Source: Asanoa ferruginea (GTDB lineage: Bacteria > Actinomycetota > Actinomycetes > Mycobacteriales > Micromonosporaceae). Taken from it: a stretch of DNA of 64,000 nt. Below, in pieces: positions 743 through 62,552 of the stretch. The notes under the pieces are model-generated. The model did not search any database, was not told where the DNA came from, and saw only the letters and a list, made by a program, of their open reading frames with translations. The stretch's first letter is position 1; each line of letters opens with the position of its first letter. The position numbers and the translations under genes were made by a program. Where the stretch lies: positions 4,526,001 to 4,590,000 of the forward strand of contig NZ_QUMQ01000001.1 of assembly GCF_003387075.1 (NCBI RefSeq), given 5' to 3'.

Positions 743-758
743 TATCTTCTAGAAGATA
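743..758. promoter_or_regulatory. Perfect 16-bp palindrome, putative operator (site 1)
   Basis: TATCTTCTAGAAGATA is a perfect palindrome in the AT-rich gap between divergent genes starting at 694 (minus) and 786 (plus). Its core at 744-757 fits the ATCNTNNNNANGAT pattern found at six other promoters here. The position suggests a repressor site controlling both directions. Confidence 0.65.
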
Positions 759-785
759 AGACGTCAATGAACGGCAGGTGGTGCG

Positions 786-1274
786 GTGAGCGGGATCAGG
801 GCCACCGAGATCGAGGCCCTCCGGATGCGCGAGGTGCTGGGCCACTTCCCGTCCGGCGTGACCGTGGTGACCGGCGTCGACGGTGCCGGGCCGGCGGGGT
901 TCGCCTGCCAGTCGTTCCACGCGCTGTCGCTGGACCCACCCTTGGTGTGCTTCTGCGTCGGGCGGTCGTCGACCACGTGGCCGCGGATTCGCGCCGCCGG
1001 CCGGTTCGCCGTCAACATCCTGGGCATCGGGCACGAGGAGCTTTCCCGGACGTTCGCGCGCAGTGGCGGCGACAAGTTCGATGGCGTCGACTGGTCGCCC
1101 AGCCCGCTCGGCTCGCCGCTGCTCGCCGAGGCGGTCGCGTGGGTCGACTGCCGGATCAGCGCGGTCTACGACGGTGGCGACCACGAGATCGTCGTCGGCG
1201 CGGTGACCGCGCTGGAGGCGATCGGCGGCGAACCGCTCGTCTTCTTCCGGGGCGAATACCGGGCGCTGGCATGA
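786..1274 (+). CDS. Flavin reductase family protein (HsaB/HpaC-like)
   Basis: A 162-residue FMN-binding split-barrel protein, the family that reduces FMN/FAD with NAD(P)H and passes it to a partner monooxygenase. Typical features are FPSGVTVVTG near the N-terminus, the FHALSLDPPLVCF segment, FAVNIL, and GGDKFDGVDW. The start is GTG at 786. The stop overlaps the next SDR by ATGA, so the two are probably translationally coupled. A paralogue lies at 55659. No classical two-component monooxygenase large subunit is adjacent; the flavin-dependent enzymes of the island may be the clients. Confidence 0.88.
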   Translation: MSGIRATEIEALRMREVLGHFPSGVTVVTGVDGAGPAGFACQSFHALSLDPPLVCFCVGRSSTTWPRIRAAGRFAVNILGIGHEELSRTFARSGGDKFDGVDWSPSPLGSPLLAEAVAWVDCRISAVYDGGDHEIVVGAVTALEAIGGEPLVFFRGEYRALA

Positions 1275-2446
1275 GGTTGGCCGGCCGGGTCGCCGTCGTC
1301 AGCGGCGCCAGCCGCGGCATCGGTGCCGCCATCGCGGAGCGGCTCGCCGCCGAGGGTGCGACGGTCGCGATCGTGGCGCGCAGCCTGTCGTCGAGCACCG
1401 ACGGCCTGGCCGGGACGCTGGCCGACACCGCGGCCCGGATCGCCGCGCACGGGTGGCGGGCCGTGCCGGTCGCGGCCGACCTCACCGACCCGGCCGAGCG
1501 GGCCCGGGTCGTCGACACCGTGCTCGAGGCCTGCGGCCGGATCGACATCCTCGTCAACGCCGCGGGCCGGGCCGTGTTCGCACCGATGAGCGGGTTCACC
1601 GCCGAGGACGTGCTCGCTCAGGTACAGCAATACGTCGTCGCGCCCTACGAACTGACCCGCCTCGCGTTGCCCGCGTTGCGGGCCAACGGCGCCGGCTGGG
1701 TGGTCAACATCGGCTCGAACAGTGCCGCGATACCCGCCGGGCCGCCGTGGAGCGGCTACACCACCGATGGGGGAGCCGCGCTCTACGCCGGGCTGAAGGC
1801 CGCCGTCGTGCGGACCAGCGTGAGCCTCGCGGCCGAGTTGGCCCGTGACGGCATCTCGGTGAACGTGGTCGCGCCAGTCAGCGCCGTCCGCACGCCGGGG
1901 CTGGAAGCGCTGGGCATCCGGACGGACAACGTCGAACCCGTGGAGCACCTGGCGGAAGCGGTGGTCGACCTGGTCTCCGCCGATCCGAGGGCAGTGACCG
2001 GCAAGGTGGTGACCGCGCAGGGGCATCTGGCCGCGGTCGGCCGCAGCACCCGGTCGCTCGACGGGCGCAGCGTCATCGTCGAGCGCGGCGCGCCACCGGT
2101 GGCGGGTCCGCCGGTCTTCGTCGTCGACGAACTCATGCCCAGGCCGGGGCAAGCCCGCGAGGTGCTGGATCGCTACGCGGCCGAATACGTGCCGGGCGCC
2201 CGGGCCCGCGGGATGCGGCTGCGGCAGACCTTGGTGAGCCCGCCGACGCTGCTCGCCGACGGCAGCAACACGATCCAGGTGACCTGGGAGGTCGACGGCC
2301 TGGATGGCTGGTGGCGGGCCCGCGCCGGCGGCCGGGACGACGCCGTCATCGGGTTCTGGGACCGGCTCGCCCCGTGCCTGGAGTCGCGCAGCCGCCGGCA
2401 TTACGCGGCCGCTGACGACCTGGCCGCGCTCGAAGACGTGCGCTGA
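1271..2446 (+). CDS. Short-chain dehydrogenase with an extra C-terminal ferredoxin-like domain
   Basis: 391 residues, much longer than the usual ~250 of a classical SDR. The N-terminal ~250 residues carry GASRGIGAAIA (cofactor loop), NAAG, the catalytic Ser in NIGSNS and YAGLK (YxxxK), so an NAD(P)-dependent alcohol/ketone oxidoreductase is expected. The final ~130 residues are not SDR. They contain a PPVFVVDELMPRPG strand and an FWDRLAPCLESR helix that look like a dimeric alpha/beta-barrel (NIPSNAP/Dabb-type) domain. A separate Dabb-like protein follows immediately (TGATG, 1-nt overlap). The domain call for the tail is an inference. Confidence 0.85.
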   Translation: MRLAGRVAVVSGASRGIGAAIAERLAAEGATVAIVARSLSSSTDGLAGTLADTAARIAAHGWRAVPVAADLTDPAERARVVDTVLEACGRIDILVNAAGRAVFAPMSGFTAEDVLAQVQQYVVAPYELTRLALPALRANGAGWVVNIGSNSAAIPAGPPWSGYTTDGGAALYAGLKAAVVRTSVSLAAELARDGISVNVVAPVSAVRTPGLEALGIRTDNVEPVEHLAEAVVDLVSADPRAVTGKVVTAQGHLAAVGRSTRSLDGRSVIVERGAPPVAGPPVFVVDELMPRPGQAREVLDRYAAEYVPGARARGMRLRQTLVSPPTLLADGSNTIQVTWEVDGLDGWWRARAGGRDDAVIGFWDRLAPCLESRSRRHYAAADDLAALEDVR

Positions 2447-3072
2447 TGGCCGTCCGCCGCACAACACTGGTCGCGTTGGCGCCGGGTGCCGACGCCGCTG
2501 CGGTGGCCCGCGCGTTGGAACAACAGGGCGGCTGGGCCCGACCCACGCTGCCCGGGGTGGTCCGCGGCGGCGACGTGGTCTGGCGGGTCACCGGCGACGA
2601 CCAGGACGCCGCCATCCCGGACCGGCTGCCGGTGGCCGGCTTCACCTCGGCGACCTACCGCGACGGCCCGACCGGCACCCGCGACCTCGCCGGCAACGCA
2701 CCCGTGCACCGGAGCCTGCTGCTGCGGGTCGAGGCCGACCCGGCCACCACCGCGGCGTTCGAGGCCGAACTCTTCGCGATGGGCAAGCACATCCCGGTCA
2801 TGCGCGAGTGGCGGTTGAGCCGGGTCGTCGCGTCGCAGGGGCCGACGGCCTGGACCCACGTGTGGGAACAGGTCTTCCCGGACCTGCGGGCCCTCGAACA
2901 CGCCTACATGCGGCACCCCTACCACTGGGGGCACGTCGACCGGTGGTTCGACGGCGAGGCACCCCAGCGGATCGTCCGGCCCGGCTTCCGTCACACGTTC
3001 TGCCTGCTCGGCGATTCGAAGACCAGCGTCGGGAACCCGGCGTCCGCCTCCGCCGTCAAGTGGTCGACGTAG
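2446..3072 (+). CDS. Dabb/EthD-like dimeric alpha/beta-barrel protein
   Basis: 208 residues with no obvious cofactor site. It reads as two ferredoxin-like repeats: residues 1-80 with VVWRVTGDD, and 85-190 with LLLRVEADPATTAAFEAEL followed by EHAYMRHPYHWGHVDRWF. The second is the stress-responsive A/B-barrel (Dabb) pattern. Such proteins often act as small isomerases, cyclases or decarboxylases in polyketide and aromatic pathways. The start shares one base with the SDR stop. The 3' end overlaps the convergent monooxygenase gene by 82 bp, so the last ~20 residues are antisense to that gene and may not be conserved. Confidence 0.7.
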   Translation: MAVRRTTLVALAPGADAAAVARALEQQGGWARPTLPGVVRGGDVVWRVTGDDQDAAIPDRLPVAGFTSATYRDGPTGTRDLAGNAPVHRSLLLRVEADPATTAAFEAELFAMGKHIPVMREWRLSRVVASQGPTAWTHVWEQVFPDLRALEHAYMRHPYHWGHVDRWFDGEAPQRIVRPGFRHTFCLLGDSKTSVGNPASASAVKWST

Positions 3073-4604
3073 GCGCCCATCCCGCCGGCATAGGGCATGA
3101 ATCGCTCCTTCTTGCCCTCGATGTTCGAGCCCGTGTACCACGACTTGGCACGGGTGAACAGCGTCGCCTGCGCGGTCTCGTCGACGAGGTCGGTCCACTT
3201 CTCCGCGTCGTTGACCGTGACGTCGACCGCGGTGGCCGCACGCTCGCGGGTCGCCGCGACGACCTGGTAGACCCAGTCGATCTGCTGCTCGGCGCAGAGC
3301 ACCATATTGGACAGTGGGCCGCTGCTGCCGGGCCCGTTGAGCAGGAACAGGTTCGGGAAGCCCGGCACCACCAGGCCGAGGAAGGTGATCGGCCCGTCGG
3401 CCCAGGTGTCGGCGAGCGCGGCGCCGTCGAGGCCACGGATGTCCATCCGGGTCACGGCGCCGGTGAACGCGTCGAAGCCGGTGGCATAGATGAGCACGTC
3501 GAGCTCGGTCAGGCCGGTGGCGGTGCGGATGCCGGTTGGCTCGATCCGTTCGATCGGGTCGCGGCGGAGGTTGACCAGCCGCACGTGCTCCTGGTTGAAG
3601 ACCGCGTAGTAGCCCGAGTCGGTGCAGATCCGCTTGGCGCCGATGGGGTGGTCGTCGGGGATCAGGTCGTCGGCCGTCCGCGGGTCACGGACGATCTGCC
3701 GGATCTTCCCGTGCACGAACTCGCTGGCGACCCGGTTGGTGTCGGCGTCGACCATCTGGTCGGGGAACGACCGCGCGAAGAAGACACCGCCGTAGGTCCA
3801 GCGCTGCTCCAGCACCTGGTTGCGCTCCTCGGGCGAGATCGCCAGCGGGTGGAGCGGGTGTGGGTCGCGGGCCGGCGAACCGTAGAGCCCGCGCCGGGTG
3901 CGCACCCGGCGCTCGGCGTAGTGGGCCTTGACCTCAGCGAACTCCTCCGGCGGGAGCGGCTCGCTGACCGCGGGGATGCTGTAGTTGGCGGTGCGCTGGA
4001 AGACGGTCAGCGCGGCGGCCCGCTTGGCCACCTCGGGCACGGTCTGGATGCCGGAGGAACCGGTGCCGATCACACCGACCCGCTTGCCGTCGAGGGACAC
4101 GGGCTCGTGTGGCCACTCCGCGGTGAAGTAGACCTCGCCGGCGAACTCGTCGGCGCCGGGGATGGCGGGCCGGTTGGGCACCGACAGGCTTCCGGTGGCC
4201 AGGACGACGAACCGACCCCGCACCGACCGCCCGCCGGCGGTGGTCACGGTCCAGGCACCATCGGCGTAGCGGGCCGCGGTCACCCGCGAGTCGAAGCTGA
4301 AGAGCTCGTAGAGCCCGAACCGGCCGGCCGCGTGCCGCAGGTAGGAGAGGATCTCCGGCTGGGTCGCGAACCGCTCGCTCCAGGTCCACTCCTGCTGGAG
4401 CGCGTCGTCGAAGGAGAACGAGTAGTCGACGCTCTCGACGTCGCAGCGCGCGCCCGGGTAGCGGTTCCAGTACCAGGTGCCGCCGACGTCGTTGCCCGCC
4501 TCGAAGCCGTGCACCGTCAGGCCGTCCTGGCGGGCCTTGTAGGCGGCGTACATCCCGGCGAAGCCGGCGCCGATCACGACGACGTCGTAGTCATCCACGG
4601 TCAT
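2991..4604 (-). CDS. FAD-dependent monooxygenase, Baeyer-Villiger type
   Basis: 537-residue class B flavoprotein monooxygenase expected to insert oxygen next to a ketone using NADPH. It has an N-terminal FAD Rossmann motif (GAGFAG, residues ~12-17), the BVMO motif GGTWYWNRYPGARCD (~41-55) and a second NADPH Rossmann motif, GTGSSG. The fingerprint FxGxxxHxxxWP reads FAGEVYFTAEWP at 154-165, with Phe160 where the family normally has His. The ATG at 4604 overlaps the upstream NTF2-like gene by ATGA. Longer in-frame upstream starts lack flavoprotein homology and were not used. With nearby SDRs and an esterase it would complete an alcohol-ketone-ester-acid route. Confidence 0.88.
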   Translation of the reverse strand: MTVDDYDVVVIGAGFAGMYAAYKARQDGLTVHGFEAGNDVGGTWYWNRYPGARCDVESVDYSFSFDDALQQEWTWSERFATQPEILSYLRHAAGRFGLYELFSFDSRVTAARYADGAWTVTTAGGRSVRGRFVVLATGSLSVPNRPAIPGADEFAGEVYFTAEWPHEPVSLDGKRVGVIGTGSSGIQTVPEVAKRAAALTVFQRTANYSIPAVSEPLPPEEFAEVKAHYAERRVRTRRGLYGSPARDPHPLHPLAISPEERNQVLEQRWTYGGVFFARSFPDQMVDADTNRVASEFVHGKIRQIVRDPRTADDLIPDDHPIGAKRICTDSGYYAVFNQEHVRLVNLRRDPIERIEPTGIRTATGLTELDVLIYATGFDAFTGAVTRMDIRGLDGAALADTWADGPITFLGLVVPGFPNLFLLNGPGSSGPLSNMVLCAEQQIDWVYQVVAATRERAATAVDVTVNDAEKWTDLVDETAQATLFTRAKSWYTGSNIEGKKERFMPYAGGMGAYVDHLTAEADAGFPTLVFESPSRQNV

Positions 4605-5080
4605 GCGGTGGGAACTCCTTCTGCCGAGCGGCGGGTGGTGATCTCGCGAGGCCCGCGGGTGATGAACGGGTCGTAGCCGCGGACCCGGATCCGCCAGCCG
4701 TCGGCTGTGCGTACCCACTGGTCGTGGTATTCGCCCCACATCACGTAGAGCTGGCCCGCGTAGTCGAGGGCGCCTTCGTGGACGGCGTAGTAGTGCGCCC
4801 GGCTCTCGGCGCGGTCGCCGTCGACCGAGAGGCGGATGTTGGTGACGTTGTGGTGGGTGCGGCCGCAGAACGAGCCCGGTCCCAGGTTGTTGCGCATGTT
4901 GGCCAGCAGGTCGGCCCGGTTCTCGATGAGCTTCTTGCCCGGCACCGCGCGATAGTCGCCGACGGTGTCCTCGGTGAAGACACCGACCAGCAGGTCGAAC
5001 CGCTTGGTGTCGATGGCTTCGCAGTAGAGGTAGTAGGCCTGCTCGATCTCGTGCCGGTCAGTCAGGTAGCCCAGGTCCAT
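4601..5080 (-). CDS. SnoaL/NTF2-like protein
   Basis: 159-residue cone-shaped alpha+beta protein of the SnoaL_4 type. The N-terminal helix HEIEQAYYLYCEAIDTKRFDLL is followed by FTEDTVGDYR, and the last strand is GWRIRVRGYDPFITRG. Members act as ketosteroid-isomerase-like isomerases, cyclases or dehydratases, or as small subunits of oxygenases; catalytic residues cannot be fixed by eye. It is the first gene of a two-gene operon with the monooxygenase (4-nt overlap). A TTGACA box and palindromic operator lie upstream. Confidence 0.8.
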   Translation of the reverse strand: MDLGYLTDRHEIEQAYYLYCEAIDTKRFDLLVGVFTEDTVGDYRAVPGKKLIENRADLLANMRNNLGPGSFCGRTHHNVTNIRLSVDGDRAESRAHYYAVHEGALDYAGQLYVMWGEYHDQWVRTADGWRIRVRGYDPFITRGPREITTRRSAEGVPTA

Positions 5081-5109: not shown

Positions 5110-5138
5110 CATCATTTCAATGATAAAGATAATGTCAA
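5110..5138 (-). promoter_or_regulatory. Putative promoter for the NTF2/BVMO operon
   Basis: On the minus strand TTGACA (5138-5133) is followed after 17 nt by ATGATG. The -10 and the end of the spacer are covered by palindrome site 2, consistent with repression by steric block. Confidence 0.5.
5111..5124. promoter_or_regulatory. Palindromic operator (site 2)
   Basis: ATCATTTCAATGAT has 6-bp inverted arms with a 2-bp centre and matches ATCNTNNNNANGAT at every fixed position. It lies between divergent genes starting at 5080 and 5156. Confidence 0.65.
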
Positions 5139-5155: not shown

Positions 5156-5662
5156 GTGGACGAGAACCGGCTGGCGACGCTCGAGAAACGGGTGGCCGCG
5201 CTGGAGGACGAGATCGCGATCGCCCGCCTGATGGCCTCCTACGGGCCTTCGGTCGACAGCCTCTCGGCCGACCTCGCCGCCGCGCTGTGGGCCGACGACG
5301 GCGACTACGACGCGGGCACCTGGGCGGGGATGGCTCCGGGCACGACCGGTGTCTTCCACGGCAGCGACGCGGTGCGGGAGATGGTGGCCACCGAACCGCA
5401 CCAGGGCTTCGTGCGCAGCGGCTGCGCGCACGTGGTCAGCGCCCCGCGAATCACCGTCGACGGCGACACGGCGGTCGCGGTCTGCTACGCGCAACTGTTG
5501 CGCCGCGACGAGGCGACCGACAGCTACCGGGTCTGGCGCATCACCGCCAACCGCTGGGAGTGGACCCGGACCCCGGCGGGCTGGAAGGTCGCCAACCGCA
5601 CCAACCGCCCACTCGACGGGAGCGAGGCCGCCCGCGACCTGTTCCGCGCCGCGCTGCGATGA
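5156..5662 (+). CDS. NTF2/SnoaL-like protein
   Basis: 168-residue NTF2-fold protein. It begins with a short charged helix (ENRLATLEKRVAALEDEIAI), then IARLMASYGPSVDSL and a final sheet GWKVANRTNRPLDGS. The GTG at 5156 is chosen because GGGAGG sits 5 nt upstream; an in-frame ATG at 5132 is possible but poorly spaced. It heads an operon with an SDR (ATGA overlap) and an esterase. The role is probably a small isomerase or dehydratase of the same pathway as the NTF2-like protein transcribed divergently; substrate unknown. Confidence 0.8.
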   Translation: MDENRLATLEKRVAALEDEIAIARLMASYGPSVDSLSADLAAALWADDGDYDAGTWAGMAPGTTGVFHGSDAVREMVATEPHQGFVRSGCAHVVSAPRITVDGDTAVAVCYAQLLRRDEATDSYRVWRITANRWEWTRTPAGWKVANRTNRPLDGSEAARDLFRAALR

Positions 5663-6426
5663 AGCTGGCCGGACGGGTCGCGGTCGTCACCGGTGCCGGG
5701 CGCGGCATCGGCCGGGCCCTTGCCGAGGCGCTGGCCGGCGAGGGCGCGTCGGTCGTCGTGTCGTCGCGCACCGCGACCGACCTCGCGGAGGTAACCGCGG
5801 CGATCGGCGGCGACGCGCGGGCCGTGGTCGCCGACGCGCTCGACCGCGACCAGGCGCGGGCACCGGTGCGCGCCGCCCTCGCGGCGTTCGGCCGGCTCGA
5901 CATCCTGGTCAACAACGTCGGTGGCCGCCCGGGTGACGGCGTCGACGCCGACCCGTGGCACGAGCACGACGACCTCTTCGACCGGCTGCTGACGCTCAAC
6001 CTGTCGTCGGCCTGGTGGACCACCAACGCGGCGTTGCCGGCGATGCGGGAGCGGGGCTACGGTCGCGTGATCAACATTGGGTCCGGGGTCGCCGACCGCG
6101 CCGGGGCGTCGATGGCCTACACCGCAGCCAAGCACGGCCTGGTCGGGCTGACCCGGTCGCTGGCGCTGGCGACCGGCACCCACGGCATCACCGTCAACTG
6201 CCTGTGCCCAGGCTGGACCCAGACCTCGGCCATCGACTGGGACGTCATCGGCGCCCGGTCCGGCATCTCCGGTGCGGAGGCGCGCGACCGCGTCACCGCG
6301 GACATCGCCCAGCGCCGGGTGCTCGACGCCGAAGAACTCGGCGCCGTCGCCGTGTTGCTCGCCTCCGACGCCGGTGCCGCCATCACCGGCCAGGTCTGGC
6401 ACGTCGACGGCGGCTGGCGTCTCTAA
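5659..6426 (+). CDS. SDR family oxidoreductase
   Basis: 255-residue classical SDR, NAD(P)-dependent. It has TGAGRGIGRALA (residues ~11-22), NNVGG, the catalytic Ser in INIGSG, YTAAK and the C-terminal GQVWHVDGGW. All catalytic elements are intact. It overlaps the preceding NTF2-like gene by ATGA. The likely role is oxidation of a secondary alcohol to the ketone used by the monooxygenase at 2991, but this is inference from context. Confidence 0.9.
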   Translation: MKLAGRVAVVTGAGRGIGRALAEALAGEGASVVVSSRTATDLAEVTAAIGGDARAVVADALDRDQARAPVRAALAAFGRLDILVNNVGGRPGDGVDADPWHEHDDLFDRLLTLNLSSAWWTTNAALPAMRERGYGRVINIGSGVADRAGASMAYTAAKHGLVGLTRSLALATGTHGITVNCLCPGWTQTSAIDWDVIGARSGISGAEARDRVTADIAQRRVLDAEELGAVAVLLASDAGAAITGQVWHVDGGWRL

Positions 6427-6445
6427 CCACAAAGGACGGACGAGG

Positions 6446-7384
6446 ATGCTCACCCCCGAAGCCCGCGCCATCGTCGACGCGATCCGGTCGGCGGCACCAC
6501 CACCCGAGCAGATCGGTCCGGCGGCGGCCCGCAAGGCGTCCGACGACCGGCGAGCCGCCCAGGTGCGCGAACTCGAGCCGATCGCGAAGGTCGAAGACCT
6601 GCTCGTGGGCGACGTGCCGGTGCGGATCTACCGCCCGGCGACCGGCACCGTCCTGTCCGGCACCGTTTTCGCCCACGGCGGCGGCTGGGTGCTCTGCGAC
6701 CTCGACTCGCACGACCCGCTCTGCCGCTCGATCGCCAACCGGGCGCGGACCGTGGTGGTGTCGGTCGACTACCGGCGCGCGCCCGAGGCGAGGTTCCCGG
6801 CTGCGATCGACGACGTCTACGCCGTGCTGTGCTGGGTCGCCGAGCACGCCGCCGACCTCGGCATCGACCCGGCCCGGCTCGCGGTGGCCGGCGACAGCGC
6901 CGGCGGCAACCTGGCCGCGGCCGCCGCCATTCGCGCCCGGGACACCGGCGGCCCGGCGCTGGCCGCCCAGTTGCTGCTCTACCCGGTGCTGGACGGTCGG
7001 ATGGACACCGACAGCTACCGACGCTTCGGACACGGCTTCGGGCTGGAGGCCACCTCGATGGCCTGGTACTGGGACCAGTACGTGCCCGATCAAGCGGACC
7101 GCTCCGACCCGCTCGCCGCACCGGCCCGCGCCGACCGCCTCGACGGGCTGCCGCCGGCGATCATCGCGGCCGCCGAGTGCGACCCGCTGTGCGACGAGGC
7201 CACCGCCTACGCGGAACGACTGGGCAACGCGTGGGTGCGCACCTACCCCAGCGGGTTCCACGGTTTCCTCAGCCTGCCGCCCGGGCTGCTCCCGGTCGCC
7301 GACGAGGCGCTCGCCGAGGTGACCTCGCGGCTCGGTCAGGCGCTGGCGCCGCCGTCGACGGACAGCACCGCGCCGTTGACGTAG
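6446..7384 (+). CDS. Alpha/beta hydrolase, hormone-sensitive-lipase (HSL) type
   Basis: 312-residue esterase/lactonase. It shows the HSL oxyanion motif HGGGW (~77), the nucleophile elbow GDSAGGN (~150), an acid in AAECDPLCDE (~245) and the catalytic His in SGFHGF (~270). The ATG at 6446 follows an AAGGA-rich leader. It would hydrolyse an ester, for example the product of the Baeyer-Villiger enzyme encoded divergently. The end overlaps the convergent SDR pseudogene by 49 bp. Confidence 0.88.
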   Translation: MLTPEARAIVDAIRSAAPPPEQIGPAAARKASDDRRAAQVRELEPIAKVEDLLVGDVPVRIYRPATGTVLSGTVFAHGGGWVLCDLDSHDPLCRSIANRARTVVVSVDYRRAPEARFPAAIDDVYAVLCWVAEHAADLGIDPARLAVAGDSAGGNLAAAAAIRARDTGGPALAAQLLLYPVLDGRMDTDSYRRFGHGFGLEATSMAWYWDQYVPDQADRSDPLAAPARADRLDGLPPAIIAAAECDPLCDEATAYAERLGNAWVRTYPSGFHGFLSLPPGLLPVADEALAEVTSRLGQALAPPSTDSTAPLT

Positions 7385-37053: not shown

Positions 37054-37146
37054 CGTTTCCGGCGCGAGTCGTTTCCTGTCAAGTCTTTACAGGATTAGCA
37101 GGATCGACTTAGGGTTCAGCTCGAGGCAAGCCTACGGAGGCACGGA

Positions 37147-47360: not shown

Positions 47361-47365
47361 GCGGG

Positions 47366-48682: not shown

Positions 48683-49309
48683 TAAAGATTAGGGCGTGGC
48701 CTTGAGGTCGCCGCGAACCCGGTGCCGCCGCACGGTTCCTGTCTGTCGTGTGGCCCGATCGCGGGGCGTTGCCTGGACTTCGTGGCGGTTCCGGCAGGGG
48801 TTCGCCGCTGCTGCCAACGACCCGAGCCGCCGGCGTGGGTCGCAACGCCTGGCGACGTGGCGCGATCTGGGGCTTTCGCCGGGGTGCGATGGGGCGTTCG
48901 GCGGCGCTTGACCGGTTTTGCGCTCGAGTACCGCTCAGCGCAACGCCGCCGGCGAGTCGCGTCCGGACAATCGTTTGGCGTATGGCTGCCTGATCAACGC
49001 AAACAACGAGCATTCGGCCGGAAAGAGCCGCCGTTGCCGAGGGGCCGGTGGCTGAGGCGCCGGCGGGCCGCCATACGCGGCGGACCTGCTCCGCATCCCG
49101 AACGCCGCCGACTTGTGCGCGTGCCGCCGCTACGAACCAAACCCCCTGTGTCACAACGAACTGGCGCCCGCGTCGGGCACCCCCGCGCGAACGAGCTCGG
49201 ACGCGAAGCCCGAACAACCGATGTCCGTTTCGCGGATCTCTTGCCGGATCGCCGGGGCGGGCAGCGCGCAGATCGCAGCACGCTGGCCACGGCATAGACC
49301 ACCCCACAC

Positions 49310-49886: not shown

Positions 49887-50095
49887 GGCCCTGCGGCCCT
49901 GCGGCCGAGAGCGTTGACCGACTCCGCGGAAGCCTGCGCTAATCGGGGGCGCCTGGCCCGGCGTGCGGCCGCTTCGTCGATGTGTCGGGGTCCGCGACCG
50001 GGGTCTGCGCCAAGGGTCTTTTCTTCTAATGATTACATTGACTCACCGTTGGGGGGCAGCGTAGCGTCGCCAGCGATCGGCTTGGAAGGAGCGTG

Positions 50096-52951: not shown

Positions 52952-53758
52952 CTATTCAGACCCGCCCGCGTTGGGGTTGCCCATGATCGCGTGCATCGCG
53001 GCCGCGTCGACCCGGCGACCGGCGTCTTCCGGCCGCAGGAACCGGGCCGGATCGAAGTGGGTCTCGGTCAACCGCATGGCGAGGGCCGAGTCACCGTCAG
53101 CGATCGCCTCGGTGATCCGCAGGTGCTGCTCGTGGTTTTTCAGCCGGTGGGCGCGCGACGGGAAGCTGCCGTTGCGGGTGGCGTTTTCGGCCCACGAGTT
53201 GACGTCGACCAGCCACAGCGACTCGAGCGAACCGGCCAGCAGCCGGAGCGTGTCGTTGCCGCACAGCTCGACGAGGCTCGAATGGAAGTCGGAGGTCGCG
53301 CGGACGAAGCCCATCGGGTCGTCCATAGCCTTCTCGGCCGCGGTGTTGTGCTTGCGGAGTTGCGGGACCACCTTGCGGGCCCGGTCCTTGCGGCTGGCGC
53401 AGAGCCCGGCCGAGGTGGCCTCGAGCTGACCCATGGCGACGCCGACGTCGTCGAGAGTGACGCCGCGGGATTCGAGAACCATGGCCATCGCGTACGCCAC
53501 GTGGCGTGCTTCCGGCCGGTGGACCACCGCGCCGCCGACGTTGCCACGCCGCACCGTGATGAGGCCTTCGGCCTCGAGGATCCGCATGGCTTCGCGGATC
53601 GACGGGCGGCTGACCCGGAACTCGGCAACCAGGGCGTCCTGGTTGGGTAGCAGTTGACCGTCGCGCCATTCGCCGTCGAGGATGCGTTGCCGGATCACGC
53701 CGGCGACCATCTCGCCGAGCTTGGGTTGCCGCAGTTGCGCACGAACGTCCGCTACCAT
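52952..53758 (-). CDS. FadR/GntR-family transcriptional regulator (FCD domain)
   Basis: 268 residues. The winged helix-turn-helix at ~25-85 contains LVAEFRVSRPSIREAMRILEAEGLITVRRG. The FCD effector domain contains three His-bearing helices (DFHSSLVEL, HEQHLRITEAIADGD, ETHFDPARF) that usually bind a metal and an organic acid. It is the only transcription factor in the window and so the local candidate for binding the shared palindromes. Its start overlaps a small inverted repeat, ATCG-ATTC-CGAT (53757-53768). Confidence 0.9.
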   Translation of the reverse strand: MVADVRAQLRQPKLGEMVAGVIRQRILDGEWRDGQLLPNQDALVAEFRVSRPSIREAMRILEAEGLITVRRGNVGGAVVHRPEARHVAYAMAMVLESRGVTLDDVGVAMGQLEATSAGLCASRKDRARKVVPQLRKHNTAAEKAMDDPMGFVRATSDFHSSLVELCGNDTLRLLAGSLESLWLVDVNSWAENATRNGSFPSRAHRLKNHEQHLRITEAIADGDSALAMRLTETHFDPARFLRPEDAGRRVDAAAMHAIMGNPNAGGSE

Positions 53759-53859
53759 CGATTCCGATCGCTCTACTTCAGGAGTGGAAGGCTCTCCGGT
53801 CAGAACCGGGTCGACGCCTTCGGTGAAGGGTTAATCATCACCATCAGTTAGCCTACACG

Positions 53860-53875
53860 AAGAGTTACGACTCTT
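53860..53875. terminator. Inverted repeat at the acyl-CoA synthetase stop
   Basis: AAGAGT-TACG-ACTCTT spans the TAA stop at 53865-53867. It is a short hairpin that could end the minus-strand transcript. Confidence 0.35.
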
Positions 53876-55565
53876 GCGTACTCATCTGCGCCGATCGACG
53901 CTGATCGAGCAGATCCTTTGCTGATCTTGATTTGAGCTGGCCCTTGGCCACCTTGCCGCCCGACGCGCGCGGCAACGAGTCCAACACGATCAGGTATTCC
54001 GGGAAATCCGACTTGGAGGCGCCGCGGCGCAACAAGTGATCTTGCAGGCTGTGCAGATCGAGCTGGCGGCCCGGGTTCAGCTCGACGTAGACGCAGACCC
54101 GTTCGCCGAACACCTCGTCGGGCACGGCGACGGCCGCGGCCAGCACCACGGCCGGATGCGTGGCGACCTCCTCCTCGACGCGAGCGGCACTGATGTTCTT
54201 GCCACCGCGGATGATGAAGTCTGACGTGCGCCCGGTCACGGTCAGATATCCCGCGTCGTCGATCGTGACGATGTCGCCCATCAGCATCCAGCCGTCTTCG
54301 GTGTAGAGCTCGGCGTTGGCGGTGTCGTCGTCGAGATAACCCAGGCACAGCGCGGGCCCGTGCCCCGCGGGCTGACCCGCGCCCGACGCGGTGACGTCGG
54401 CGTCACCGTCGAAGAGCCGAACATTCATCTCGGGTACGACGCGCCCGGCCGTCGTCATCCGCTGCTCGAACGAGTCCGACAGCGTGGTTCCGGTCAGCAG
54501 GCCGGTTTCGTTGGAGCCGAAGAACTGGAGCACCGATGCGCCGGTCACCTCTTCGAAGCGGCGCGCCCGCGTCGGCGGCACCGCCTCGCCACCGGTGAAC
54601 ATCGCGCGCAGGCTGCTCAGGTCGCGCCGCTCGGCGTCGGGGCTGTTGAGCATCATGATGAACTGCGTGCTGACGCAAGTCACCACCGTCGCCCGGTAGG
54701 TCTCGATGAGCTCGAGCGCCTCGTCGGCGTCGAACCGCTCGCGCAGCACCGTCGGCGCGCCGAGGATCGTCGGGGTGAAGTGTGCGGTCCAGAGGCCGAA
54801 GCCGAACGGGGCGGGCACGCCGCTGAGGAAGACGTCGCTCGACGTGAGGTGCCCGTTCTCGGCGGCCTTCTGGTGGAAGTAGAACCAGCGGTTCTGGTTG
54901 TGCATCACGCACTTGGGCATCCCGGTGGTGCCCGACGTCGAGTTGAGCATGAAGAGGTCGTCCGGCCCCATGGCCCGCTCGGCCGGCGCCGGTGCGAGCC
55001 CCGCGGGGTCGACAAGCTGACCGTCCACAACGTACGGCCGGCCGGCCGGCGCCCCGTCGAGCACCGGCACGACGACGTGGTGCGCCAACGTGGGCACCTC
55101 GACCCGCAGCGTCTCGAAGAGGTCGGCCATGTCGCGGCCGCGATGCGTCGCCATCGTGACCAGGGTCGTGGCCGACGTCTTCCCGAGGAGATAGGCCAGC
55201 TCGCGGTCGCCGGCGCGGGCGCCGATGCCGACCACGGTCAGCCCGGCCTTCTCGGCGGCGACGAACGTGACGTGCACGGTGGCGCCGTCCGGCAGCCAGA
55301 CCGCGAGCCGGGAGCCCTCGGGCAGTCCCGCGGCGACCAGCACGGCGGCCAGCTCGGAGGAGAGCGCGTCGTACTGCGACCAGGTCGTGGTGCCGTGGTC
55401 GGCGTGGAACGCCGGCGCGTCGGGCCGGGTCGCGGCGTGGCCGGCGATCACCTGGGCGAGGGTCTGTTCACCCCACCAGCCCTCGGCGCGGAACCGCTTC
55501 GCCAGGTGGCTCGGCACGGCGTCGCGGAAGTCGTCGACCGTGACCCTGGCGGCATAGTGCGTCAT
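53865..55565 (-). CDS. AMP-forming acyl-CoA synthetase (class I adenylate-forming)
   Basis: 566 residues. The P-loop motif is STSGTTGMPK (~210), followed by GSNETG, the hinge region YLTVTGRTSDFIIRGGKNIS and the catalytic Lys in PRASGGKVAKGQLK. Converts an acid, CoA and ATP to acyl-CoA and AMP. It is monocistronic, divergent from the flavin-reductase operon, with operator site 6 between them. Confidence 0.92.
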   Translation of the reverse strand: MTHYAARVTVDDFRDAVPSHLAKRFRAEGWWGEQTLAQVIAGHAATRPDAPAFHADHGTTTWSQYDALSSELAAVLVAAGLPEGSRLAVWLPDGATVHVTFVAAEKAGLTVVGIGARAGDRELAYLLGKTSATTLVTMATHRGRDMADLFETLRVEVPTLAHHVVVPVLDGAPAGRPYVVDGQLVDPAGLAPAPAERAMGPDDLFMLNSTSGTTGMPKCVMHNQNRWFYFHQKAAENGHLTSSDVFLSGVPAPFGFGLWTAHFTPTILGAPTVLRERFDADEALELIETYRATVVTCVSTQFIMMLNSPDAERRDLSSLRAMFTGGEAVPPTRARRFEEVTGASVLQFFGSNETGLLTGTTLSDSFEQRMTTAGRVVPEMNVRLFDGDADVTASGAGQPAGHGPALCLGYLDDDTANAELYTEDGWMLMGDIVTIDDAGYLTVTGRTSDFIIRGGKNISAARVEEEVATHPAVVLAAAVAVPDEVFGERVCVYVELNPGRQLDLHSLQDHLLRRGASKSDFPEYLIVLDSLPRASGGKVAKGQLKSRSAKDLLDQRRSAQMSTQES

Positions 55566-55581: not shown

Positions 55582-55611
55582 TTGTCAGGTTCGGCGCTGC
55601 TGGCCTATCAT
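55582..55611 (+). promoter_or_regulatory. Putative promoter of the flavin-reductase operon
   Basis: TTGTCA (55582-55587), 18 nt, TATCAT (55606-55611). Operator site 6 begins inside the -10. Confidence 0.45.
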
Positions 55612-55620
55612 ATAAACGAT
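55607..55620. promoter_or_regulatory. Palindromic operator (site 6)
   Basis: ATCATATAAACGAT matches all fixed positions of ATCNTNNNNANGAT and 12 of 14 bases of ATCATTTAAATGAT. Lies between divergent genes starting at 55565 and 55659. Confidence 0.6.
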
Positions 55621-57160: not shown

Positions 57161-57933
57161 ACCGCCCGGCCGGCGCGTTCCTCTCGTTCGCCACTATCCA
57201 TGATGGATTGCATCAGCAATACAATGCGTGGCATCAGCTCGACCACCGCCCCGAGAACCTGGCGCTCGACGGAGTGCTGGCCGGGGAGCGTTGGGTGCGC
57301 ACCCCGGCGTGCGCGGCCGCCTATCCGGTGGCCGACCCGACTCTCGCGCGGACCCACTACGTCAACTCCTACTGGTTCCGGGCTCCCGTCGCGGCGTCGG
57401 TGCGGGAATGGCAGGAGCTGGCCGAGGTCTCGTTCCAGCAGGGGCGGCGGCCAGACGTGCGGATCGCGACCCGCCCGATGATGGGGATGTTCAGCCCGGT
57501 CACCGGCCTGGCGTCCGGCGTCTCACCGCTCGCGCTCCTGCATCGGCCCAATCGCGGAGTGGTGCTCTCGGTGCTGAAGCTGACCCGCCCGCGGGCGCCG
57601 GAGACCGAGGCCTGGCTCGCGGACCGCGAAGCCGAGATGGGCGAGCGCCTGCGGGTCGACGGCGTCGCCGGGGTGTGGAGCCTGTCCAGCGTGAGCACGT
57701 CGGTGGATCCCTCTTTCCAGGCCCGGTCGGGGAGCATGACGTTCGACCCGACACCCACCGACGCCGGCTATCTGCGCGCGGAGCTGACCTTCCTCGACGG
57801 CGACCCGCTGCCGGTCACCGGCCGCATCCCGGCCCTGGCGCCGGACCGGGTCGCGCCCGATCCGGCGTACGCCGAGGATCTGTTCACCAGTCTTTTGCTC
57901 CCGATCGTGCCCTGGCACTGGGACTGGTTCTAA
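57157..57933 (+). CDS. EthD-like dimeric alpha/beta-barrel protein
   Basis: 258 residues. The N-terminal half has YNAWHQLDHRPENLALDG, recalling the EthD/Dabb pattern; the second half (GVVLSVLKLTRPRAPETEAW) looks like a repeat of the fold. No signal peptide. Function unknown; it follows the LLM enzyme with a 4-nt overlap and probably acts on its product. The C-terminus (IVPWHWDWF) is Trp-rich. Confidence 0.65.
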   Translation: MNRPAGAFLSFATIHDGLHQQYNAWHQLDHRPENLALDGVLAGERWVRTPACAAAYPVADPTLARTHYVNSYWFRAPVAASVREWQELAEVSFQQGRRPDVRIATRPMMGMFSPVTGLASGVSPLALLHRPNRGVVLSVLKLTRPRAPETEAWLADREAEMGERLRVDGVAGVWSLSSVSTSVDPSFQARSGSMTFDPTPTDAGYLRAELTFLDGDPLPVTGRIPALAPDRVAPDPAYAEDLFTSLLLPIVPWHWDWF

Positions 57934-59147
57934 GCCGTCAGGTCGTGGCCCATCCGCGCGACCTTCGTCGCCATGTAGGTCGCCCGCTCGGGCCGGGACT
58001 CGGCGACCAGCGGCACCCGCTCGACGACCTCGAGGCCGAAACCGTCGAGTCCGGCCCGCTTCGCCGGGTTGTTGGTGAGCAGCCGCAGCCGGCGCAGGCC
58101 CAGATCGCGCAGGATCGCCGCGCCGACACCGTAGTCGCGCGCGTCCGCCGGCAGTCCGAGGGCCAGGTTGGCGTCCACTGTGTCGTACCCGGCATCCTGG
58201 AGTTGATAGGCCTGTAGCTTGTGACTCAGGCCAATGCCGCGCCCCTCGTGCCCGCGAAGATAGATCACCGCGCCGTGGCCGGCAGCGTCGATCATGTCCA
58301 TCGCGGTGTGCAACTGGGCGCCGCAGTCACAGCGCCGCGACGCGAAGACGTCTCCGGTGAGGCACTCGGAATGCATCCGCACCAGCGCGGCCGGCTGGCT
58401 CGCCGGGTCGCCCTTGACCAGCGCGACACTCTGCACACCATCCACAACGGACTCGTAACCGTAGATCTCCCAATCGCCGTGGTCACTGGGCAGTCGGGTC
58501 ACCGCGACCCGGCGGATGAGCGACTCGCTCTTGCGCCGGTAGGCGATCAGGTCCGCGATGCTGGTGATGAGCAGCCCGAAGCGGTCGCCGAAGCGGCGCA
58601 GGTCGTCGAGGCGCATCATCGTGCCGTCGTCGTTCATCACTTCGCAGATGACACCGGCGGCGGTCCGGCCGGCCAGCCGGGCGAGGTCGGCCGACGCCTC
58701 GGTGTGTCCGGCGCGGACCAACACACCGCCGGGGGTGGCCCGGAGCGTGAACACGTGACCGGGCCGGCGGAAATCCTCGGCCTGCGCCAGCGGATCGACG
58801 GCGTGCCGGATGGTCGCCGCGCGTTCGAACGCGCTGATCCCCGACACGCCGGGCACATCGAGGTCGATCGACACGCCGAAGTGGGTCTCGGCGTGGATGC
58901 CGGCCTGCGGGTCCATCGCGCCGATGGCGAGGTGGTCGAGCTGCCCGCCGTCGAGCGACAGGCAGACCAGCCCGCGGCCGTGCGTCACCATGAAGTTGAT
59001 GATCTCGGGAGTCACCAGGTCGGCCGCGACGACCAGATCGCCTTCGTTCTCGCGGTCCTCGTCGTCGACCACGACCACGATCTCGCCGCGGCCGATGGCG
59101 TCGATCACGTCACTGACGGGCGCGAAGCCCCCCGCGGGTCGGGTCAC
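57930..59147 (-). CDS. ribBA: Bifunctional DHBP synthase/GTP cyclohydrolase II (RibBA)
   Basis: 405 residues catalysing two entry steps of riboflavin synthesis. The DHBP synthase part has DDEDRENEGD, RPGHVF, RAGHTEAS and ICEVMN, with all catalytic acids and the His intact. The cyclohydrolase II part (from ~205) has the zinc ligands in CLTGDVFASRRCDCG and the RGHEGRGIGL loop. GTG 59147 overlaps the upstream dehydrogenase stop. It is last in a catabolic operon, not in a riboflavin cluster, and no FMN riboswitch is seen. Extra flavin supply for the island's flavoenzymes is a reasonable inference. Confidence 0.93.
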   Translation of the reverse strand: MTRPAGGFAPVSDVIDAIGRGEIVVVVDDEDRENEGDLVVAADLVTPEIINFMVTHGRGLVCLSLDGGQLDHLAIGAMDPQAGIHAETHFGVSIDLDVPGVSGISAFERAATIRHAVDPLAQAEDFRRPGHVFTLRATPGGVLVRAGHTEASADLARLAGRTAAGVICEVMNDDGTMMRLDDLRRFGDRFGLLITSIADLIAYRRKSESLIRRVAVTRLPSDHGDWEIYGYESVVDGVQSVALVKGDPASQPAALVRMHSECLTGDVFASRRCDCGAQLHTAMDMIDAAGHGAVIYLRGHEGRGIGLSHKLQAYQLQDAGYDTVDANLALGLPADARDYGVGAAILRDLGLRRLRLLTNNPAKRAGLDGFGLEVVERVPLVAESRPERATYMATKVARMGHDLTA

Positions 59148-59926
59148 TGCCCGAGCGCGGTGCGGCCCGCGCGCAGCCGGTCGAGGATGTCGACCGCGCC
59201 GTTGAGGTCGACCACCGGGAGGGTGCCGATCTGCGACCGGAACAGGTCGACGTCTTTGGAGAGCAGGTCGATCGACGGGTTGAGGAACGCCTCGCCCATC
59301 CAGCTTCCGCCCGAGCTGGTCCGCAGCACCTCGCGGAGCAGTTGGGGCCGCATGCCGGCCTGTTCGGCCAACACCATCATCTCGGCGTACGACACGGCGG
59401 TGTAAGCGGCCGACACGTTGTTGAGCAGCTTGGCCAGCGTGGGCTGGCCGAACTCGTCGAGCTTCACGCTGACCGCGCCGAGATCGGCGAACATGTCGGC
59501 CTCGCGGTCGTCGTGGTTGCCGGCCAGCATCAGCGTCAGCGTGCCGGCCCGGGCGCCACCGGCACCGCCGGAGACCGGCATCTCGATGAGCCGCCACGGC
59601 CGGTCGTCATACCGGCCGAGCCCCCGCGCGTAGTCGAGGTCGAGCGTGGTCGACACCAACACGCCGGCCCCCTCGGGCAGCGGCACGCTGTCGAGCGTCT
59701 TGAGCACCGACTCGGCCTGGTCGGTGAGGCGGACGACGACGAGCACGTGCGCGACCTCCGCCCACGGCACCTCGTGCAGCGACGTCACCGCCTCGAGGCC
59801 GGTCAGCTCCTGCCACTCGGCGCGCCGCTCCGGCGACAGGTCGACGCCGATCACCTCGCGGCCCTGGGCGACGAGCCGCTGTGCCATCGCGATGCCGATG
59901 TTTCCGAGACCCACAACTACCTTCAC
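59144..59926 (-). CDS. NAD(P)-dependent 3-hydroxyisobutyrate dehydrogenase-like protein
   Basis: 260 residues of the 6-phosphogluconate/beta-hydroxyacid dehydrogenase superfamily. It has GLGNIGIAMAQRL at the N-terminus, the substrate motif MPVSGGAGGARAG (~120) and the catalytic Lys in TLAKLLNN (~175). Slightly shorter than the usual ~290. GTG start overlaps the RibB-like stop, and its own stop overlaps RibBA. Confidence 0.86.
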   Translation of the reverse strand: MKVVVGLGNIGIAMAQRLVAQGREVIGVDLSPERRAEWQELTGLEAVTSLHEVPWAEVAHVLVVVRLTDQAESVLKTLDSVPLPEGAGVLVSTTLDLDYARGLGRYDDRPWRLIEMPVSGGAGGARAGTLTLMLAGNHDDREADMFADLGAVSVKLDEFGQPTLAKLLNNVSAAYTAVSYAEMMVLAEQAGMRPQLLREVLRTSSGGSWMGEAFLNPSIDLLSKDVDLFRSQIGTLPVVDLNGAVDILDRLRAGRTALGQ

Positions 59927-60879
59927 GCTACGACCTTTCGGGGATGGATCGGCTGCGCGGCAGCCAGATCGGCGGCGACGAGACAAGCCAGGTGCGGCGA
60001 CACCGTCGTCGGGTGTTCACCGCAGGCGGCCGGAGGAGCGCCGGCCGCGGAGACGAGCACGACCGCGCCGCGCCCGCGACCGTCGAACTCGTCGATCGCG
60101 GCGTCGAGCGCGTCCCGGCAGGGCCCGGCGATCCGCAAGGTGTGGCCGGCCGGGCAATAGGGCAACACCGAAACCTCGAACTCGTCGTGTACGCGGTGCG
60201 CGTCCCGCGCGGTGACCACCAGATCCAGGCGGTGGTGGGCCAGCCGGACGATCCGGTGCCCCGTCCAGGGCTCGGCGGCCCAGCCTCGCGCGCGGCGTTG
60301 CGCCCGCAGCACATCGGCGATGTCGAGGCAGATCGTGCCGGTCTCCCGCGCGAACTCTTCGAGCTGCGTGGCCGTGGCCATCGCGCCGTCCTCGGCGAGG
60401 ACACCGGCGAGCGCGACGCCTTGGCCGAGCCCGGCGATCTCGACGAGGTGCTGGAGCGCCTCGCTGAGCCAGTAGCGGCCGATGTCGCCGGTGTCGTCGA
60501 TCGCGTTGGGCAGCACGTGTCCCGGTGTGCGCAGGTGCTCCCGGGTGGTGCGCGGATCGAGGATGGTCCGGATGGTCTGCGCGCGGTCGGCGGCGGAGAC
60601 ACCGGTGGTCACCGAGCCGCGGGCGTCGACGGCGACCAGGATGCCCTTCTGCAGCACGCCCGCGCCGTGTTGGCGGCCGATGCCGAGGTGCTCGAGCTGC
60701 GGCCGCGGCGCGCCGGCGTAGACGATGCCGCGGCAGCGGGTGACCAGGAAGTTGACCGACTCGGGGGTGATCGCGCGGCCCGCGTAGCCGGCGATCCCGA
60801 GATCGCTGACCCGGTCGGTGAGCACGACGTGGCAGCCGGCCCGGAGCCGGTCGACCGCCTCGGCGATGGCGCGGTTCAC
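59923..60879 (-). CDS. RibB/RibBA-like protein lacking catalytic residues
   Basis: 318 residues aligning end to end with RibBA by eye: TPESVNFLVTRCRGIVYAG, TTGVSAADRAQTIRTILDP and RTPGHVLPN. The three catalytic regions are changed. DDEDRENEGD reads LTDRVSDLGI, the GHTEA His segment reads DDTGDIGRY, and ICE reads LAG. The second half is a shrunken GTP-cyclohydrolase-like region without the zinc Cys cluster. DHBP synthase chemistry is therefore unlikely; a new ligand or a structural role is possible. GTGA overlaps on both sides. Confidence 0.75.
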   Translation of the reverse strand: MNRAIAEAVDRLRAGCHVVLTDRVSDLGIAGYAGRAITPESVNFLVTRCRGIVYAGAPRPQLEHLGIGRQHGAGVLQKGILVAVDARGSVTTGVSAADRAQTIRTILDPRTTREHLRTPGHVLPNAIDDTGDIGRYWLSEALQHLVEIAGLGQGVALAGVLAEDGAMATATQLEEFARETGTICLDIADVLRAQRRARGWAAEPWTGHRIVRLAHHRLDLVVTARDAHRVHDEFEVSVLPYCPAGHTLRIAGPCRDALDAAIDEFDGRGRGAVVLVSAAGAPPAACGEHPTTVSPHLACLVAADLAAAQPIHPRKVVA

Positions 60880-62516
60880 GCGTCGCCGCCGAGGGTGAGC
60901 CAGGAGGCCGGCCCGGTCCGCACCGTCGATGTTCCTTTGCGCATCGTGTCGGATGCGGAGTCGGTTATCCACCGGCGGTGCTTCGGCCATGAGGTGTGGC
61001 TCAGCATCAGTCCGAGTTGGGAGCCCTTGGCGAACCGCCACGCGATGGGACCGAGGGCGATCTGCGCTGCCGCGTTGCCGGCCTGGTCGGCGGCCCGCGC
61101 TGGTGTGCTGGTGGCGCCGTCGGCGACCAGCATGACCCGGCCGTCCGGGCCGCGCTCGACCAGGCGGGCCACCCAGCGGACGCCGGGGCCGGCCTCGGTG
61201 GCGATTGTGCATCGCACATTGCCGGCGATGTCGAGTGCATCGGCGAGCGGATCGCCGAACCAGCTCAACACGTCGGGTCGGCCCAGCAATGACCGTTGGT
61301 CGCGCGGCCCCGCGTTGGCGGCGACTTCGAGACCGGGAAGGAACGTCGTGCCACCGAGCGTGGGTGTGGGGTCCGCTTCGTCGTAGTCGAGCGGGGTGAC
61401 ACCCGGCTCACCCGCGGCGTCCGAGAGCGTCCCGTCGGCGCCGAGGAAGAGCCGAAGCGGGTCCTGGGGCGGCGGCCAGCTACCCGACATCCAGCCCCGG
61501 CCGTGGTGGAACCAGGTGGCCGCCGATCGTGGGCTGTCATCCGTGCTGCGGAGCCAGCGGTCGAACCAGTCGAGTTGCCGGTCGGTGAGACCGATCGCCG
61601 CTCCCGAGGCGGCTGGCCCGAAGTCGAACTCGGGGAAGACGCCCGGGTTGGCGCCGCCGTGCGGCCACGGACCGACGATCAGCTCACGCGGCCCGGCGCC
61701 CGGTCCGGCGGCCAGGATCGTGCCTCGCAGGAAGAGGTCGAACCAGCCGGCGATCACGAGCGCGGGCACGGCGACGTCGGCGGCAGGCCGACAGACCGCG
61801 GCGAGCTCGGCCATCGCCGCCGCCCGGCGTTCGTCGTCGAGCCAGGCGGCCAGCCACGACGGCAGACTGCCCCGCCCCACCCGATCGCCGTCGTCGCGGT
61901 TGGCGTCGGCGAGCCGCTCGGTGCGGTGGACGGCGCGCTGACCGAGGCGGGCGCCGTCGGGCGGTGGCAGGTCGGCTCGATCGCGTTCGTAGAGGACGGC
62001 ATCGGCGAGTTCGGGGTCGCCGACGAGGTGGCGCAGTGACCAGAAGGCGAGAAAGCCCCACTCCAGGGCCGAATCGCCGCCGAACCAGTCGCGGGCCGGG
62101 TTGGCGCCCGAGAACATCGGTGCGATGGCGCGCAGGCCGTCGGGGCGCAACGCGGCCGTCTGCCATTGCAGGAACGCCGAGTAGGAGCGGCCGAACATGC
62201 CGAGATTCCCGTCGGACCACGGCTGCGCGGTGATCCAGCGCAGCGTGTCGACGCCGTCGGCGGCCTCGTTGACAAAGGGCGTGAACTCGCCGTCCGACGA
62301 GAACCGGCCGCGGCAGTCCTGCGTGACGACCGCGTAGCCGCGGCGCACGGCGCGGGTCGTGTCGAGGGCTCCGTCGCGGATCGCGGGCGCGTTCTTGTCG
62401 TAGGGAACGCGCTGGAGCAGCGTCGGGAAGGGCCCGGCACCGGCAGGTAGCTGCACGTCGGCCCGCAGCACCGTGCCGTCGGACATCGGGACCGGGACGT
62501 CGAAGGAGACCTGCAT
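60876..62516 (-). CDS. CocE/NonD family hydrolase
   Basis: 546 residues. N-terminal alpha/beta-hydrolase with TLLQRVPYDKNA, nucleophile elbow GRSYSAF (~110), AGWFDLF and GPWPHGG (catalytic His). A C-terminal jelly-roll (from ~350) is typical of cocaine esterase and X-Pro dipeptidyl peptidases. No signal peptide. First gene of the RibBA operon, with a clear promoter and operator upstream. Confidence 0.9.
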   Translation of the reverse strand: MQVSFDVPVPMSDGTVLRADVQLPAGAGPFPTLLQRVPYDKNAPAIRDGALDTTRAVRRGYAVVTQDCRGRFSSDGEFTPFVNEAADGVDTLRWITAQPWSDGNLGMFGRSYSAFLQWQTAALRPDGLRAIAPMFSGANPARDWFGGDSALEWGFLAFWSLRHLVGDPELADAVLYERDRADLPPPDGARLGQRAVHRTERLADANRDDGDRVGRGSLPSWLAAWLDDERRAAAMAELAAVCRPAADVAVPALVIAGWFDLFLRGTILAAGPGAGPRELIVGPWPHGGANPGVFPEFDFGPAASGAAIGLTDRQLDWFDRWLRSTDDSPRSAATWFHHGRGWMSGSWPPPQDPLRLFLGADGTLSDAAGEPGVTPLDYDEADPTPTLGGTTFLPGLEVAANAGPRDQRSLLGRPDVLSWFGDPLADALDIAGNVRCTIATEAGPGVRWVARLVERGPDGRVMLVADGATSTPARAADQAGNAAAQIALGPIAWRFAKGSQLGLMLSHTSWPKHRRWITDSASDTMRKGTSTVRTGPASWLTLGGDA

Positions 62517-62524
62517 GCGCGAAC

Positions 62525-62552
62525 TCTATATCATTTAAATGAAAGGACTCAA
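62525..62552 (-). promoter_or_regulatory. Putative promoter of the CocE-RibBA operon
   Basis: On the minus strand TTGAGT (62552-62547) is followed after 16 nt by TATAGA (62530-62525). The palindrome of site 7 occupies most of the spacer, a classic repressor arrangement. Confidence 0.6.
62530..62543. promoter_or_regulatory. Palindromic operator (site 7)
   Basis: ATCATTTAAATGAA contains the perfect palindrome TCATTTAAATGA (62531-62542) and differs from the shared pattern only in its last base. Confidence 0.65.

Follow-up and report, generated by a model that had tools for sequence, protein, structure and literature searches.

AT-rich palindromes in a predicted catabolic gene island of Asanoa ferruginea as probable operators of a local GntR/FCD regulator

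The present analysis concerns a 64,000-nucleotide stretch of the Asanoa ferruginea genome, referred to below as the window (C1:4526001-4590000, 70.4% G+C, on a single contig of 9.07 Mb). The original prediction, made from the letters of this DNA, had noticed an AT-rich 14-bp palindrome at seven promoters and ascribed it to one regulator coordinating transport, oxygenation and CoA chemistry. The palindrome is real, and the observation is stronger than was first claimed, with nine strong sites. What is established is that the sites exist, that their strict form is restricted to the island, that they lie upstream of genes and that they co-occur in other genomes with homologues of a regulator encoded in the window. 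It is likely, with a probability of about 0.85, that the palindromes are operators of this regulator, a GntR/FCD protein of the FadR subfamily encoded at 52952-53758 on the minus strand, which would act as a local repressor at about a dozen promoters until a pathway intermediate lifts the repression.

All seven coordinates given in the original prediction were right. The sites at 744, 5111, 26066, 28340 and 55607 fit ATCNTNNNNANGAT exactly, and the mismatches lie at the end of the motif, as predicted: one at 62530 (last base) and two at 16951 (last two bases). Exact matches to ATCNTNNNNANGAT number seven in the window, against a mean of 0.13 and a maximum of 2 in dinucleotide shuffles; two of them, at 18308 and 55737, were absent from the earlier list, lie inside genes and have low matrix scores (12.0 bits and below 10 bits, respectively). 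The supposed rarity of the motif by chance held in shuffled windows but not genome-wide, where the 14-bp pattern has 123 places in 9.07 Mb versus three for the reversed control, with GC-rich centres in most of those listed. The 14-bp pattern alone is therefore a poor identifier. With one flanking A or T on each side (WATCNTNNNNANGATW), letters picked after the sites had been seen, four places are left in the 9.07 Mb and all four belong to the window; it is the flanking A/T that gives the specificity. The relaxed pattern WWWCNTNNNNANGWWW has 17 genomic places, six of them in the window, and its reversed control has five. A search with the strict motif covered 41 genomes, the own genome and 40 relatives. 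At least one and at most seven matches were present in 21 of them, and in none of these was a cluster like the window's seen; G018 had the most matches (seven) and the closest pair seen (19 kb). A sequence-only covariance model, R1, was too weak, recovering three sites (both strands) with E of 0.06 to 0.21.

A matrix search, which had been suggested along with the original prediction, was run with a symmetric matrix built from the seven sites on the window and on a 400-kb control from the same genome (200 kb of flanks and 200 kb spread). The sites stand out from the control and mostly hold. Nine window places reach at least 20 bits and the control maximum is 15.1; the two beyond the earlier seven are at 26149 (24.1 bits) and 63909 (20.0 bits), so there are more sites than the seven first listed. 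None of the 20 own-genome control stretches of 20 kb attains a strong-site score. Called intergenic DNA of the window (5,586 bp) contains eight places of at least 20 bits versus a mean of 0.01 and a maximum of 1 in 200 shuffles of two-base blocks. When the matrix was rebuilt from nine sites, the top 15 places of the window (at least 12.2 bits, several overlapping) all lay outside called genes, a count that takes in 28340, which overlaps a gene end. The top coding place scored 12.0 bits. The same matrix finds six places of at least 12 bits in the 400-kb control, one of them reaching 14 bits (15.2). In leave-one-out tests from the original seven, six outscore every place in the control, 28340 narrowly (16.4 versus 16.1). 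The site at 16951, the weakest of the seven, scores 14.7 bits with one control place higher (maximum 16.0) and falls just inside the control range.

The protein encoded at 52952-53758 was already the candidate reader in the original prediction. It has an N-terminal GntR winged helix-turn-helix (HTH) domain (PF00392, E 3.5e-17, residues 16-73) and a C-terminal FCD ligand domain (PF07729, E 7.4e-17, residues 108-236). This make-up is that of the FadR subfamily (PdhR, LldR, GlcC, NanR), and the sequence is similar to NanR, PdhR and other GntR-family chains of the PDB. No other DNA-binding regulator was found by the Pfam scan, which covered 61 of the 62 called genes of the window. The search of the own genome at E <= 1e-30 returned the protein itself as the single match, 6 of 71 first-look candidates having been scored. 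The protein matches 18 NCBIfam families, each time below the curated cut-off; the top score is 86.3 bits with the NanR model versus a cut-off of 260, and the protein does not reach the score of the named members (NanR, GlcC, PdhR, LldR). In the FCD domain, His159, His212 and His234 are conserved columns among homologues. Four residues before His159 there is a Thr, at what we take to be the usual position of a metal-binding Asp, and the metal site may be altered.

Among 397 genomes of the order, 64, one of them the own genome, have homologues of this protein at E <= 1e-30. Scores were taken for a set of 92 homologues, free of repeats and including three from plasmids; this set was less selected than the wider loci mentioned below. 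A site of at least 18 bits by the window matrix lies within 1.5 kb of 24 of the 72 homologues with Asp or Glu in the contact column described below. The corresponding figures are 1 of 20 for the remaining homologues, 1 of 72 for shuffled sequence, 4 of 481 for control windows from other loci and 0 of 120 for own-genome control windows. Loci of relatives of the flavin monooxygenase in named genomes, used as controls, have sites of at least 18 bits in 3 of 79 cases and no site pattern. Among the wider homologue loci such sites were found at 13 of 18, a biased figure, as the loci were hand-chosen, partly after matches had been seen.

The same core was recovered by a search blind to the motif, in which perfect palindromes of at least 14 bp were sought in 310 bases around the starts of the 92 homologues. 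Such palindromes were present at 14 loci (15% versus 5.6% in shuffles). Eight of them are GC-rich and unrelated to the window's core, and the six AT-rich ones, perfect over 18-22 bp, all contain it: TGCTATCTTGTACAAGATAGCA occurs three times and the CAATCCTTATAAGGATTG type, 18-22 bp long, three times. A looser motif-blind search adds families, for example CCATCATCATAATGATGG beside f10 homologues. Of the places listed in 63 homologue-bearing genomes, 21 of the 22 that have a T..A centre are no more than 100 kb from a homologue, versus 11 of the 53 that have other centres. The form WATCNTTNNAANGATW is found in 11 of 64 homologue-bearing genomes versus 11 of 333 others (Fisher p 1.4e-4, on the assumption that both counts cover the same 397 genomes), and 24 of its 25 places in homologue-bearing genomes are within 100 kb of a homologue. 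The association of palindromes with homologues elsewhere, the sole regulator in the scanned genes and the confinement of the strict motif to the island support the idea of one island regulator and the choice of 52952-53758. Near two distant homologues (37% identical, loci L198 and L195) other palindromes were seen, TATACCTCTAAAGGTATA and TATACATCTAGATGTATC, which are perhaps a related operator type.

The comparison of orthologous promoters was made with genome G174, which has an island that is orthologous in part and contains orthologues of many of the window's island genes, among them the luciferase-like 51064 (70% identity), 56171 (62%), 55659 (61%) and 59144 (63% over 44% aligned). It also has two regulator homologues, with identities of 55% and 48%; in the latter, one stop codon falls inside the matched stretch. 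Sites precede the orthologue of 50351, which corresponds to the 50294 (+) operon (29.7 bits), and a homologue of 35609 (20.2 bits); a further one separates the orthologues of 4601 and 55659 (16 bits), and another immediately follows one regulator gene (24.8 bits). The agreement with the window, seen upstream of several of the same genes, is loose and not one to one. Outside the order, on an alphaproteobacterial plasmid from Novosphingobium, three places around a homologue of 48% identity reach at least 20 bits; all are intergenic by the annotation, apart from an overlap of two bases between one of them and a gene end. The plasmid homologue loci of Mycobacterium branderi and Rhodococcus sp. USK13 contain no site above 17.0 bits.

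The gene content around the sites, according to Pfam, includes enoyl-CoA hydratase, flavin reductases, short-chain dehydrogenases/reductases (SDRs), SnoaL proteins, a flavin monooxygenase, ABC transporters of several types, NDP-forming and AMP-forming acyl-CoA ligases, thiolases with OB-fold partners, amidohydrolases, a Rieske protein, luciferase-like monooxygenases and ribB-like proteins. It agrees with the predicted transport, oxygenation and CoA chemistry, and by its gene families the 63-kb region is predicted to be a catabolic (degradation) gene island. Two ribB-like (DHBP synthase, 3,4-dihydroxy-2-butanone 4-phosphate synthase) genes are located at 57930-59147 and 59923-60879; they may serve flavin supply for the flavin-dependent oxygenases. 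A ribB-annotated gene is also found near a regulator homologue on the Novosphingobium plasmid pABRDHK22. An Nramp-type metal transporter gene (31156-32319) lies within a run of amidohydrolase and thiolase genes.

All nine strong sites are upstream of genes, in keeping with the predicted location upstream of operons or between divergent genes. Some occupy the space between divergent genes. The first, ATCTTCTAGAAGAT (744-757), separates an enoyl-CoA hydratase gene (2-694, minus strand) from a flavin reductase gene (786, plus). The second, ATCATTTCAATGAT (5111-5124), is between the SnoaL/flavin monooxygenase (2991-5080, minus) and SnoaL/SDR/hydrolase (5156-7384, plus) operons, and the third, ATCATATAAACGAT (55607-55620), is between the acyl-CoA ligase (53865-55565, minus) and flavin reductase/luciferase-like monooxygenase (55659, plus) operons. 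The operon for the peptide-type ABC transporter (15231-16832 and onward, minus) has ATCATTTACATGTA (16951-16964) upstream of it. The site ATCTTTATGAAGAT (26066-26079) precedes the amidohydrolase gene 25231-26034 (minus), which is followed downstream by ABC, thiolase/OB-fold and acyl-CoA ligase genes, and the added AACATATATATGAA (26149-26162) overlaps the likely -10 of 26199 (plus). Upstream of the amidohydrolase/Rieske operon at 28384 (plus), ATCGTTGTTATGAT (28340-28353) overlaps the final codons of the preceding gene 27135-28352. The remaining two are ATCATTTAAATGAA (62530-62543), before the S15-peptidase/ribB-like operon (60876-62516, minus), and the added ATCTATTATATGTT (63909-63922), before the SDR gene 63145-63900 (minus). 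Two further places are possible weak operators: 48677-48690, which precedes the branched-chain-type ABC operon 42887-48574 (minus), scores 15.3 bits, close to the top of the 400-kb control, and is accompanied by another weak place at 48668; and 50020-50033, which precedes the 50294 (plus) operon, scores 13.1 bits and does not exceed the range of the control.

The sites lie roughly 8 to 51 bases from the start codon, with 118 for 16951. The original prediction that several sites cover a spacer or -10 was borne out in 11 of 12 promoter pairs proposed with self-set weights, the single exception being 26066 on the minus strand, where the site comes after the -10. This placement suits a repressor. 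Eight of the 12 pairs were equalled by no more than 5% of shuffles; the weak ones are those at 744 (both strands), 5111 (plus) and 16951.

From these data we infer that the 52952-53758 protein binds the sites, that it represses, and what kind of inducer it answers to. The palindromes (consensus TATCATTTAAATGATA, core ATCNTTNNAANGAT in relatives) would serve as its operators, probably with one dimer per palindrome. As most sites are in or beside a likely -35/-10 pair, the bound protein would most likely block RNA polymerase at about a dozen promoters, since some of the nine strong sites stand between divergent genes. A pathway acid or acyl-CoA thioester arising from island catabolism probably binds the FCD domain, and the promoters would then be freed together. 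A comparable local catabolic regulon, with one repressor and many promoters, is that of KstR, which concerns cholesterol. The two are alike in having many operators across one large catabolic region; KstR, unlike the GntR/FCD protein, is TetR-type and has another operator.

Other explanations have to be weighed against repression by the GntR/FCD protein. The protein might activate from the sites, or both activate and repress, and the weak -35/-10 pairs leave room for this, as some sites may be placed differently with respect to the true promoters. In nearly all proposed pairs, however, the site is where a bound protein would block polymerase, and FadR-subfamily proteins are mostly repressors, which makes activation unlikely. 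It is more doubtful still that a different regulator, of the MarR, TetR or a distant GntR type, encoded outside the window, reads the sites and that the link with the FCD protein is coincidental. Such a regulator would be consistent with the lack of a strong site at the FCD protein's own promoter and with a survey of regulators that covered the window only, minus one called gene and small open reading frames. Against it, the palindromes found without the motif directly upstream of homologues have the same core, and clusters of sites accompany homologues not only in several families of the order but also on one alphaproteobacterial plasmid.

The resemblance among the sites could also be that of promoter-like AT-rich DNA picked by eye, such as a shared -10 type or sigma-factor consensus. 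The overlap with likely -10 elements and the 123 genomic places of the 14-bp pattern alone are in favour of this. It is largely refuted by the confinement of WATCNTNNNNANGATW, the failure of every control stretch to attain the score and the six sites that hold in leave-one-out, and the two-fold symmetry recurs beside the regulator in other genomes; we regard it as highly improbable.

A number of observations weigh against operators read by the GntR/FCD protein. Among the 72 Asp/Glu homologues, 48 have no site of at least 18 bits within 1.5 kb. The six AT-rich motif-blind palindromes all come from one genus (g27) and amount to about two independent cases; in general, kinship among genomes inflates the figures and makes the p values optimistic. 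The form WATCNTTNNAANGATW has no match in the own genome, and the window sites are therefore looser and more degenerate than those of relatives. Moreover, 11 genomes without a close homologue have one WATCNTTNNAANGATW match each. Two strict-motif matches with AT-richer centres were inspected in genomes outside the homologue-bearing set. The one in G022 (L149:9971-9984, 30.0 bits) lies before a chitinase-like gene, and 20 kb of sequence at this locus contained no regulator homologue; this match is probably due to chance or to another regulator. The one in G005, 71 bases from a contig end, likewise had no homologue in 12 kb. Within the window, nothing in the divergent promoter at 36997-37146 reaches 10 bits (nine-site matrix), and the regulator's own promoter (53711-53864) has a best score of 9.3 bits. 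The control of the island is hence not total, as neither promoter has a good site. Several regulator homologues elsewhere, unlike the one in the window, do have a strong putative operator at their own promoter. The 35609 operon has no site, though its G174 homologue does, and the 50294 operon has only its weak place. Finally, the -35/-10 weights were self-set and the stretches were chosen around the sites, which favours overlap.

The putative recognition residue of the protein departs from the commonest one of its subfamily. Its Asp41 column, which we take to be HTH position 28 on the strength of the table numbering of PMC4494728 and the FadR sequence, contains E 39, D 34, A 15, P 3, K 1, L 1 and no Arg in 93 homologues. 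NanR and PdhR, unlike the window protein, have Arg in this column; Arg is the commonest residue at the main base-contact position in the FadR subfamily, without being universal. In the nine operators, aligned to the consensus TATCATTTAAATGATA, the invariant letters are C and G. According to PMC4494728, Arg at HTH position 28 prefers G, and Asp-C contacts have been inferred. Judging from the alignments, an Asp/Glu-C contact may replace Arg-G recognition, with a tentative register of residue and base.

The same source describes AT-rich palindromic operators, often between divergent operons, for the FadR subfamily (PMC4494728), and the nine AT-rich palindromes of the window, upstream of genes and co-occurring with homologues, would be of this kind if the GntR/FCD protein binds them. 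Their core is ATC..GAT, unlike the TKGT/ACMA boxes given there (PMC4494728); these boxes, a common consensus with published exceptions, are absent from TATCATTTAAATGATA, and the putative operator departs from the published FadR-subfamily consensus. Non-canonical sites are also reported in PMC4494728 for BioR (TTATMKATAA) and NanR (TGGTATAW repeats). The window sites resemble these in departing from the consensus and differ from them in sequence or symmetry. In the titles and abstracts of the literature searched, a partial collection, no description of this operator or regulator branch was found.

It may tentatively be proposed, at somewhat less than even odds, that a widespread branch of FCD regulators, found in Actinobacteria as well as on at least one sphingomonad plasmid, has swapped Arg-G for Asp/Glu-C recognition, reads ATCNTTNNAANGAT and governs entire catabolic islands from many promoters, about a dozen in the present case. 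The replacement of Arg by Asp/Glu next to an altered operator would offer a natural way to test the GntR recognition code, and similar islands in other genomes can be located and delimited by the joint presence of motif and homologue. For A. ferruginea, a 63-kb degradation gene set of unassigned substrate becomes a single testable regulon whose regulator gene and operator are named, and whatever induces one of its promoters would hint at what the island degrades.

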